In this document: piece by piece, positions 403 to 12,071 of the stretch
Layout: every line of letters starts with the position of its first letter
How positions within the stretch are numbered: the first letter of the stretch is position 1
From: a virus
IMG/VR virus record: IMGVR_UViG_3300042090_000139
Span: 1 to 32,994 of that record
DNA: 32,994 nucleotides
Reading direction: 5' to 3' (one strand)
Program-made: the position numbers and the translations under genes
The notes under the pieces: generated by a model
The model's database searches: none
The model's input: the letters and a program-made list of their open reading frames with translations, nothing else
What the model was told of the DNA's origin: nothing

Positions 403-1032
403 ATGAACGAAGTTACTCTAGTAATCACCTCTTGTGGCAGACCAGATCTACTAGATAGGACTATAAACAGTTTTCTATTACATAATACATATCCGATACA
501 AAACACAATAATAATAGAAGACGGCCCCGCATTAACAATCAGTCAAGATTTATCAAACATTAATATAATCATAAACAAAGAAAGAAAAGGACAAGTATAC
601 TCTATAGACAAAGCATACAGCTATGTAACGACTCCTTTTATATTTCACTGTGAGGACGACTGGGAGTTCTATAAATCGGGCTTCATTGAAAGATCTTTAG
701 AGATACTAACTAACAATGGTCATATATTACAAGCATGGTTAAGAGAACAACAAGACACAAACGGCCACCCCGTAGAGAAAAGAGAAGATCTAAGCTATGA
801 TCTAATGGCTTTAGATTGGGGAGATAAATGGCATGGATTCAGTTGGAACCCAGGCCTAAGAAGATTATCTGATTATAAAACTATAGATAATTACTCTAAG
901 TATCAAGAAGAAACCCTAGCAATAGGTACAGAAGCAGTATTAAATAAAATATATAAAGATCTAGGATTTCGGGCCGCAATATTAAGAGAAGGTTATGTAA
1001 AACATATAGGAGAGGGAAGACATATATCATGA
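403..1032 (+). CDS. GT2-like glycosyltransferase
   Basis: A 209-residue GT-A-fold glycosyltransferase, resembling family 2. It opens with the nucleotide-sugar-binding strand typical of the family (VTLVITSCGRPDLLDRTI, residues 4-21), has a second strand ending in IIIEDGP (36-42), and has HCEDDWEFY (82-90), whose EDD fits the metal-binding DxD-type motif. There is no signal peptide or membrane segment, so it should act in the host cytoplasm on a soluble acceptor such as a virion protein, or on DNA or a sugar intermediate. The stop overlaps the next start (ATGA, 1029-1032), so it is translationally coupled to the second glycosyltransferase. Donor and acceptor cannot be read from sequence. Confidence 0.8.
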   Translation: MNEVTLVITSCGRPDLLDRTINSFLLHNTYPIQNTIIIEDGPALTISQDLSNINIIINKERKGQVYSIDKAYSYVTTPFIFHCEDDWEFYKSGFIERSLEILTNNGHILQAWLREQQDTNGHPVEKREDLSYDLMALDWGDKWHGFSWNPGLRRLSDYKTIDNYSKYQEETLAIGTEAVLNKIYKDLGFRAAILREGYVKHIGEGRHIS

Positions 1033-9293: not shown

Positions 9294-12071
9294 ATGGGTA
9301 TAAATTTTAATAGTACAACTCCCCCAGCACCTAGCGGTGGCGTAAATGTAAAGTTTCAAGAAGACAATTCTGGAAACGTTTCTGCGTATATTCCTAATGT
9401 TAATTCTTACGGAGGTCCAACTGGTCCTATAGGTCCTACTGGTTATACTGGTCCCAGTGGTGGCGCTCAAGGAACAACTGGGTATACTGGATATACTGGT
9501 TATACTGGAAGAACTGGATATACAGGATACACTGGTTATACTGGCGCGGGAAACTTTACTGGATATACTGGATATACAGGTTATACAGGATTAGGTCCGA
9601 CTGGTTATACTGGATATACAGGTCCTGGTAATTTTACAGGATATACTGGATATACAGGAGCCGTTGGGGCTGGAGTTAGTGGTTCTACTGGATACACAGG
9701 ATTCACTGGTTATACTGGCTATACTGGGCCTGCCGCGTCTGTAGCTCCTTATGTAGATGCTGGCATCCAAACTATTAGCGGATGGGCTGCTGAAACTGGC
9801 TCTCAGATTGGCGGTGTTCCTCCAACAACCTACGGCTTTAATCAATTCCAACCTCCTAGCGGAACGGCCATGCAGTTCTATACAAGCGGTCCTGCTTATT
9901 CTGATTGGTTGGCGCATGTCGGCCGTACTATTTATGCCAACAATGTCGGAGAACTACAACTTTCATTTACTCTAACTACGGATAGTAACGCTCCCACTGT
10001 AGCACAAGCTATTGAATTCGATACTCGTCTGTCTAAAGGCGGTTGGAACTATAACTTCAGTTGTCAATTAAATTATAATGCTGGTGGCACACTACAAATA
10101 TCTAATCAATCTGGTGGTTGGGTTAATACTGGATTTACTCCTGGAATTCTAACTGCGGGTACTACATATCAGATTATATGCGAATATGAATTCAATTTAA
10201 CCACTCAGACTTACTCAACAATAGCAGTAACTATAGGTACTACTAGATATGTAATTCCAAATAATCTACAAAACCTGTCGGCCACAAACCTTGGCTGGTC
10301 TGATGGTGCTTACATACAAATTCAGCAAGATATTAACGGTAATGGTGGATCTTTCACTATGCTGATTGATAGTATGGAATTCATTTGGCCAGTAGTAAGT
10401 AGTGGCGAACAAGGTGCCACTGGTTACACTGGTTACACGGGATATACTGGACCGATTGGGTCGACGGGTTATACAGGGCCTACAGGACCTACAGGATATA
10501 CTGGTTATTCTGGATTCACTGGTTACACGGGATATACAGGTAGGACTGGTTATACTGGCTACACTGGTTATACAGGTCCGAATATTACTGGTTATACTGG
10601 ATATACTGGTCCTCAAGGAGCTACTGGTTATACTGGCCCTGGTGGCACTGGGAGTATTGGTCCTACTGGTTACACTGGTCCTGGTGGACCTTCTGGATCT
10701 GTTGGATCAACTGGTTATACTGGTTATACGGGTTATACGGGGTCACAGGGAACAGCTGGCGTGGCTGGGGTAACAGGATATACTGGATATACTGGATCGA
10801 TAGGAACTACTGGCTATACAGGATATACTGGAACACCTGGACCAACTGGATACACAGGTCCTGGTGGAACTGGTAGCATTGGACCCACAGGATATACAGG
10901 ACCACAAGGAATACCTGGTTCTACTGGTTATACGGGGCCCACTTTCACAGGTTACACAGGTTACACAGGTTTCACTGGGCCTCAAGGTCTTGGAGCATTT
11001 ACTGGTTATACTGGTTACACAGGATATACGGGATATACGGGCTCAGGTTCTACTGGTCCTACTGGTTATACTGGACCAGGAATTGCTTCTATAGCTTACG
11101 GTGAGTTATACTGTAGCACCTACAGTAGCTATACTTTGACTTCTGAGAACACCTGGTATCAGATTACTAATTCCTGGTCTGCTGGGTCTTATCTAAATAC
11201 TGTTATTTCCACTACTAATGGAAATATTATTATTGATAACACTGGAAAGTATGAACTATCTGCTACTCTTTCTATTGGAGTATCTACTGAACAAGAGTAT
11301 GAATTCGCATTCGCTCAGAATGGAACAATACTTTCTAATACTGTTTCTCAGATACAACCACAATTCAGTACTTTAGCCTGGGCCAATGTTTCTGTACAAG
11401 GTATTGCTAATTTAAATAGTGGAGATGTGGTTGGGCTTTATGTTCGTTGTATAAGTACTTCTGGTATTTCTCCAGCTATTGGATTTATAAATTTTACAAT
11501 ACAAGGTTTGGGAGGAGCATTAGGTCCTACTGGTTATACAGGTCCATCTGGATACACTGGTTACACTGGCTATACTGGACCAATTGGAGCAACAGGAACT
11601 GGTGCTTATACTGGTTACACTGGTTATACAGGATCGATCGGTGCTACTGGTTATACTGGGCCAATCGGCTCTACTGGTTATACTGGCCCTAACAGTGGAT
11701 TCACTGGATATACAGGTTACACTGGCCCCGCAGGAAGTGGAGGAGGAGTTAGCAGTTATGTAACATTAACAGATTCAGCTGGATCAATAACATGGTCTGT
11801 AAGCAACTCTACTAACAATGCTATAGTAACACTCAATGCTAATAGTACTCTTTCTATAACTGGAGTAACTAACGGAATGAGCGGAACTTTACTGGTGTAT
11901 CAACCTTCTAGTAATGGTCCGTATACTCTAGCTCTTCCAGCTAACAGTAAAGTAGTTGGTGGTGGTAGTGGGATTGTTTCTTTATCAACGACTTCTAGTG
12001 CTCTGGATGTACTAACCTGGAGCTATACAGGTTCAATATATGTTTGGACCTATGGGAGAAATTTCAACTAA
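9294..12071 (+). CDS. Collagen-like fibre protein with Gly-Tyr-Thr repeats
   Basis: A 925-residue fibre protein with three collagen-like stretches (DNA about 9413-9735, 10404-11081 and 11523-11742) separated by globular domains. Triplets are mostly Gly-Tyr-Thr, with Gly-Pro-Thr, Gly-Phe-Thr and some charge-free others. The domain between stretches two and three (about 600-743) has the beta-rich pattern of C1q/TNF-like trimer heads (tG-Y-elsa strand, then L-x-x-GD-V and a final FTIQGLG). The last 110 residues are another beta-rich head. Triple-helix trimerisation is expected. Role: head or tail fibre, perhaps for adhesion. CGGAG upstream supports the ATG. Thr at nearly every Y position could be sugar-modified. 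Confidence 0.88.
9413..9735 (+). repeat. Collagen-like repeat stretch 1 (first fibre gene)
   Basis: A run of nine-base units coding Gly-x-Thr, mainly Gly-Tyr-Thr. Codons for the same residue vary from unit to unit, so protein is more regular than DNA. Two breaks of the form Gly-x-Gly-Asn-Phe-Thr occur near 9545 and 9628. Confidence 0.9.
10404..11081 (+). repeat. Collagen-like repeat stretch 2 (first fibre gene)
   Basis: The longest Gly-x-y stretch of this gene, mixing Gly-Tyr-Thr with Gly-Pro-Thr, Gly-Pro-Gly and Gly-Pro-Gln. Phase-shifting breaks include Gly-Pro-Asn-Ile-Thr near 10577 and Gly-Pro-Thr-Phe-Thr near 10937; a Gly-Leu-Gly-Ala-Phe-Thr break is near 10990. Confidence 0.9.
11523..11742 (+). 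repeat. Collagen-like repeat stretch 3 (first fibre gene)
   Basis: A short Gly-x-Thr stretch joining the C1q-like domain to the C-terminal head, with a Gly-Thr-Gly-Ala-Tyr-Thr break near 11599. Confidence 0.88.

Follow-up and report, generated by a model that had tools for sequence, protein, structure and literature searches.

The DNA studied here is IMG/VR virus record IMGVR_UViG_3300042090_000139, analyzed over its full 32,994 nucleotides (the window). It holds two glycosyltransferase genes at 403-2630 and two genes for collagen-like fibers, fiber 1 (9294-12071) and fiber 2 (30893 to the end) (Table 1). A first-pass annotation had proposed that the two enzymes modify Thr residues of the fibers, over a range (403-12071) that takes in fiber 1 but leaves fiber 2 outside. 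As described below, Thr-rich viral collagens are indeed linked to glycosyltransferase genes, but the enzyme that accompanies them is an SgtA-like protein with GT2 and TPR domains (GT2-TPR), and the relatives of both genes of the named pair lie mostly in collagen-free contigs.

That both fibers are collagen-like was borne out. They contain 122 (fiber 1) and 140 (fiber 2) in-register Gly-X-Y triplets, compared with means of 2.5 and 3.3 in shuffled proteins, and because the triplet Gly-Tyr-Thr (GYT) is coded in 15 and 18 different ways, respectively, the repeat is maintained at the amino acid level. Thr does not fill nearly every Y position, as had been stated, but 67% of them in fiber 1 and 69% in fiber 2; Tyr, which the annotation did not mention, occupies 46% and 56% of the X positions. 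Tyr was reported absent from the prophage collagens of Escherichia coli studied earlier (PMC3368898). GYT collagens are common among environmental viral contigs. PF01391 was the only domain found in the window fibers, with no phage-fiber domain in Pfam, and we rejected their assignment to the EPclP type of collagen-like phage tail fiber, since they lack the flanking Pfam phage-fiber domains. A globular segment of fiber 1 had no relative in IMG/VR.

Viral contigs for comparison were sampled with DNA patterns for GYTGYTGYT, GIQGIQG, and GPTGPTG and with a random 14-mer; sampling ended at 119 to 120 matches for each pattern, so that the totals are at least that. All of the records compared are fragments, and absence of a gene from them is therefore weak evidence. 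The Thr fraction of Y was taken with a simple regular expression that dropped interrupted runs, and contigs were dereplicated by clustering of collagen-masked DNA at 70% DNA identity, which replaced a clustering without masking in which the repeats had joined unrelated contigs (57 versus 47 clusters, p = 0.29). The GT2 family PF00535 was present in 32/41 GYT records (one <20 kb), compared with 5/38 random records >20 kb, and after dereplication in 29/36 GYT clusters versus 5/36 random clusters (p = 1.6e-8). When whole records were instead grouped by the share of Y positions that Thr holds, PF00535 was found in 45/61 of those at or above 0.5 and in 8/30 of those below 0.3 (p = 3e-5), and the difference persisted when the GYT set was excluded (16/27 versus 6/26, p = 0.012). 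The general idea that fibers with Thr in Y accompany glycosyltransferase genes thus holds as a strong link across uncultured viral contigs.

The genes behind this link are mostly unlike 403-1032, the GT2 gene of the pair. They encode proteins of 350 to 1,230 residues in which a GT2 domain at the N terminus is combined with TPR repeats and, in many cases, with another glycosyltransferase domain or with a methyltransferase domain; the genes commonly adjoin the fiber gene. Of 45 such genes, 43 have the same orientation as the closest collagen gene, and the distance to that gene is within 1 kb for 24 and within 3 kb for 40. In related phages they stand alongside collagen-like genes whose Y positions hold Thr.

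In Clostridioides difficile, SgtA transfers beta-O-GlcNAc onto Thr of the GPT collagen repeats of BclA3 in vitro; its GT2 domain spans residues 1 to 260 and its TPR region residues 262 to 358, and its gene lies immediately upstream of bclA3 (PMC7157674). A profile of the fiber-linked glycosyltransferases trained on GYT records would have been circular for those records, and we set it aside in favor of a bacterial profile and the Pfam tests. A degenerate form of the published sgtA 5' primer recovered 120 bacterial loci, mostly from Firmicutes, with 111 SgtA-like ORFs (open reading frames), mostly of 340 to 375 residues. For 41 of these SgtA-like genes the 8-kb locus also held a collagen-like gene, in most cases Thr-rich in Y and no more than 350 bases away. 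The viral fiber-linked profile matched the 111 bacterial proteins with an hhalign probability of 100 (E = 8.6e-48, 343 columns), so that the fiber-linked genes of related phages, with GT2 plus TPR, share full-length homology with the SgtA-like family. The homology to C. difficile SgtA is one of family, through SgtA-like bacterial proteins, and not direct. Applied to viral locus clusters, the bacterial profile found 28/143 with a Thr fraction of at least 0.5 and 2/78 with a fraction below 0.3 (p = 1.7e-4), compared with 0/75 random clusters; with the GYT set excluded, the counts were 10/77 versus 2/74 (p = 0.03).

A profile search of the 32,994 bases of the window found no SgtA-like gene. The closest view of what may lie beyond its right end comes from record G026 (204,633 bases), which is collinear with the window across the terminase, portal, protease, and capsid genes. 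The capsid proteins are 65.8% identical (G026:53592-54869), the terminases are 46.6% identical (G026:43487-45121), and the N terminus of fiber 2 is 34.5% identical to that of a GYT fiber at G026:58464. In G026 this fiber gene is followed directly by two GT2-TPR genes, one of them SgtA-like, with a PF13524 glycosyltransferase gene between them (Table 1), and because of that arrangement a GT2-TPR gene is expected past base 32994, after fiber 2. We conclude that this phage probably has a GT2-TPR gene beside fiber 2, a short way past the right end of the window.

The predicted structure of the G026 SgtA-like protein combines a GT-A domain with a helical solenoid, and its best matches in the PDB, at 16 to 18% identity, are the peptide S-glycosyltransferases SunS and ThuS. 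These nearest solved folds likewise act on polypeptides, but their acceptor is a Cys or Ser residue in a bacteriocin and not collagen. A named phage shows a similar layout: in Actinomycetia phage DSL-LC01 (GenBank OQ999401; L736:2535-9077), two GPT collagen genes and the genes up to a GT2-TPR gene form a row on one strand. The same row holds a hypothetical gene and a gene annotated as a tryptophan halogenase, and a halogenase near fiber genes is unusual.

The reading that we favor, and consider somewhat probable on these genomic grounds, is that the GYT fibers are virion fibers whose Y-position Thr residues would be O-glycosylated late in infection by phage polypeptide glycosyltransferases, mainly of the GT2-TPR kind. 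The TPR solenoid would hold the unfolded fiber chain late in infection while the GT2 domain attaches the first sugar to Thr, fused or neighboring glycosyltransferase and methyltransferase domains would extend or cap that sugar, and the glycosylated chains would then trimerize, folding into triple helices. The pair at 403-2630 would be an auxiliary (extension) enzyme at most. Several points weigh against this proposal. The data show the fibers, the association of Thr-rich collagen with GT2-TPR genes, the homology of these genes to SgtA-like proteins, and their place after the homologous fiber in G026; the action of the enzyme on the fiber, the sugar, the timing, and the presence of the gene in this phage are inferred from them. 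The window itself has no SgtA-like gene. A GT2 match was missing from 9/41 GYT records, though all of these are fragments, and at the scale of loci only ~20% carry the enzyme, partly since the loci are short. The gene order beside fiber 2 is unlike that in G026, where the homolog of 30106-30873 follows the glycosyltransferases, whereas the window copy precedes fiber 2. The bacterial proteins retrieved are SgtA-like and do not include C. difficile SgtA itself. Finally, phages with Thr-rich and Thr-poor fibers may differ in host or lineage, a difference that dereplication at 70% leaves in place.

As had been described, the genes at 403-2630 are two real, coupled ORFs, 403-1032 and 1029-2630, which overlap by 4 bases. 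The first has a GT2 domain but no TPR and no match at E = 10 to the SgtA-like or fiber-linked glycosyltransferase profiles, and on those two counts we rejected it as an SgtA-like GT2-TPR enzyme; in the pair as a whole, Pfam revealed neither TPR nor any other polypeptide-binding domain. The PF01762 score of 1029-2630 falls exactly at the 23.0-bit cutoff, and a fused homolog in record G029 scores 29.0 bits. Alignment of 1029-2630 with four relatives indicates that it contains a GT31-like domain twice. Copy 1 retains an intact DxD motif (D129-x-D131, in KCDTDTYV), and in copy 2 FPDT replaces DxD in all four of the two-domain sequences aligned. The best PDB matches of its AlphaFold model (mean pLDDT 65) were the human GT31 enzymes B3GNT2 and B3GALT6; a match to COLGALT1 spans both domains of this low-confidence model, but with a root mean square deviation (RMSD) of 14 to 15 A. 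We treat 1029-2630 as a GT31-like protein and the likeness to COLGALT1 as a lead only. Neither window enzyme matched a solved structure by sequence, and tblastn found no relative of either in named phages.

The survey of uncultured viral contigs upheld the association of fibers with some glycosyltransferase gene but not with this pair. Relatives of 403-1032 made up 121 of 194 pattern matches in IMG/VR. A collagen gene was present in 0/80 sampled loci of this GT2 subfamily and in 1/29 whole records, and that one record is 360 kb long and has Gln, not Thr, in Y of 74/86 triplets. The profile of the subfamily found 1/119 GYT loci and 0/120 random loci, and we dropped it as the fiber-linked enzyme. 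The sequences closest to the GT31 tandem, L009 to L012 (49 to 51% identical), come from four records of 25 to 85 kb, none of which (0/4) holds collagen. In the GYT-fiber record G029, one fused GT2-GT31 protein corresponds to both window enzymes, and because of this fusion the two domains belong together. The fusion gene lies in L730 (564-3782), followed by genes for an FkbM methyltransferase, a 155-aa ORF, and LicD and then by terminase and portal; this cassette is a compact glycan-modifying set within the packaging operon. Of the GYT records, 4/41 had GT31-like genes, whereas the random (0/38), GPT-selected (0/41), and GIQ-selected (0/36) records had none (4/41 versus 0/115, p of ~0.004 by hand calculation). 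Three of the four positive records exceed 150 kb and are the largest of the GYT set or nearly so, and record size may therefore account for the excess. An auxiliary, glycan-extending role for the pair is possible on this comparative evidence.

Among the alternatives for the pair, the one that survives best is that it alters host surface glycans (O-antigen or capsule), so as to mask receptors or keep out other phages, and is unrelated to the fibers. We find this a serious contender, if not quite a probable one. Modification of host glycans is the usual reading of glycosyltransferases in hypervariable tail-fiber regions (PMC7029224), and in L010 to L012 relatives of the GT31 tandem cluster with a UDP-galactopyranose mutase, an NAD-dependent epimerase, or a GT11 fucosyltransferase-like gene, as in O-chain synthesis. 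Against it, the neighborhood showed neither a membrane anchor nor a flippase, and in the window, in L009 to L012, and in G029 the enzyme genes lie a short way upstream of the packaging and structural genes and in the same orientation, which fits late expression. That position, where the late genes begin, would also suit a pair that glycosylates another virion protein, for example, the capsid or the tail tube, which strikes us as possible but rather doubtful. Mycobacterium phages carry glycans on exactly these proteins (work cited in PMC12619734), a precedent for phage glycosyltransferases that decorate virion proteins, although there the C termini of capsid and tail tube proteins, and not collagen fibers, are described as the targets. 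The structural genes of the pair's relatives differ from one another, which speaks against this reading.

The proposal of the first-pass annotation, by which the pair itself would glycosylate the fibers, with GT2 placing the initial sugar on Thr for the GT31-like tandem to extend, now appears unlikely. The fused enzyme of G029, with its methyltransferase and LicD neighbors, and the excess of GT31-like genes in GYT records are on its side, and an intact GT-A domain in tandem with a degenerate one recalls COLGALT1 and LH3, weakly, given the RMSD and the low-confidence model. The scarcity of collagen among relatives of both genes, the lack of a polypeptide-binding domain, and the size of most GT31-positive records count against it, as does a gap of ~6.6 kb to fiber 1 that holds several ORFs, including the large terminase. 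Mimivirus L230, encoded by a virus with collagens of its own, and human COLGALT1 and LH3 are collagen-modifying enzymes whose tandem GT-A layout resembles 1029-2630 at the level of the fold; however, they modify hydroxylysine, are ~11% identical, and belong to eukaryotes or a eukaryotic virus, and no lysyl hydroxylase was seen here. A more ambitious variant of O-glycosylated fibers would make the Thr-rich fibers of many uncultured phages glycoprotein bottle-brushes, on which a phage-borne module of SgtA-like GT2-TPR enzymes, with fused second glycosyltransferases and methyltransferases, builds capped oligosaccharides at Thr. The GT2-GT31 pair would be one of its extension enzymes, pairing a catalytic with a degenerate GT-A domain much as animal collagen galactosyltransferase does. 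This variant we offer as speculative and on the improbable side.

It is also unlikely, in our judgment, that the fibers carry no sugar at all, Thr in Y stabilizing the triple helix by hydration and GT2-TPR genes being neighbors only through a shared variable fiber region. Across bacterial collagens in general, no residue fills Y more often than Thr (PMC8968730), and a prophage collagen produced in E. coli is stable without glycosylation (PMC3368898). Against this, Thr-poor fibers occupy similar regions yet are much less often accompanied by the enzyme, and the same enzyme family adjoins Thr-rich collagens in Firmicutes. DNA glycosylation was considered as well, and for the fiber-linked enzyme the tie to Thr content speaks against such a role; no base-modification gene was seen in the 33 kb, although no search aimed at such genes was made.

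Phages often encode glycosyltransferases whose target is unknown, and the customary explanation is modification of host O-antigen or of DNA. The link between Thr content of phage collagen and GT2-TPR genes offers a specific substrate, residue, and enzyme class, which a single coexpression experiment could test. The nearest known system is SgtA-BclA3 (PMC7157674), which shares with the phage loci a GT2-plus-TPR enzyme encoded next to a collagen-like gene whose Y positions hold Thr and, by profile, family homology. It differs in that it serves the spore surface and not tail-fiber-like phage proteins, in that many of the phage enzymes carry a fused second glycosyltransferase or methyltransferase, and in that GYT fibers have Tyr, not Pro, in X; moreover, the phage enzyme is known from genes, none of which lies within the window. 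The prophage collagen EPclP (PMC3368898) likewise has Gly-X-Y domains within phage fiber proteins, but with Pro in X, charged residues in Y, no Tyr, and no Thr glycosylation seen. We found no publication on Thr glycosylation of phage collagen in the open-license literature. If our favored reading of glycosylated GYT fibers is right, the O-glycosylation of collagen that spores and animals are known to have would extend to phage fibers and would explain how phage collagen that lacks hydroxyproline is stabilized or hidden. The results also caution that the annotated glycosyltransferase closest at hand in a fragment may not be the relevant enzyme.

Table 1. Mapped features of the window and of the related record G026
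Feature	Record	Position	Strand	Evidence or remark
Virus record	Window	1-32,994		Linear fragment, tailed phage; right end cuts fiber 2
GT2-family glycosyltransferase, 209 aa	Window	403-1032	+	PF00535, E = 3.8e-9; no TPR domain; translationally coupled to next gene
Tandem GT31-like protein, 533 aa	Window	1029-2630	+	PF01762, 23.0 bits, residues 92-141
Large terminase subunit	Window	6755-8818	+	phrog_2, E = 1.7e-26
Collagen-like fiber 1, 925 aa	Window	9294-12071	+	PF01391, E = 1.8e-32; broken by globular segments
Portal	Window	17278-19443		
Major capsid protein	Window	24649-25968	+	phrog_3922, E = 9e-12
Gene preceding fiber 2	Window	30106-30873	+	Homolog in G026 (tblastn, 37% identity, E = 4.7e-46)
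Collagen-like fiber 2	Window	30893-32994	+	PF01391, E = 1.3e-40; open at contig end
GT2-TPR gene with second glycosyltransferase region	G026	64845-67460		Directly after homologous fiber
PF13524 glycosyltransferase	G026	67467-68438		
SgtA-like gene	G026	68451-69545		
Homolog of window 30106-30873	G026	70108-70872		After glycosyltransferase cluster

A scan of IMG/VR with the terminase returned no relative. The large protein encoded after fiber 1 (12044-15727) had no Pfam or PHROG match; it has a signal-peptide-like N terminus if an internal Met is the start, and comparable signal-like starts occur after GYT fibers in G029 and before one in G033. Three further ORFs drew attention by eye only. At 3911-4360, VHTHPSQEYDTSASEMD resembles the JAMM/MPN metalloprotease motif. 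An HNH-endonuclease-like ORF at 24106-24555 (CQYC...CVPCC), located between head genes, is probably a homing insertion, and 27583-28050 shows a D,D-carboxypeptidase-like pattern (FSDKELG...HIQLD) that could belong to an endolysin or a virion peptidase.

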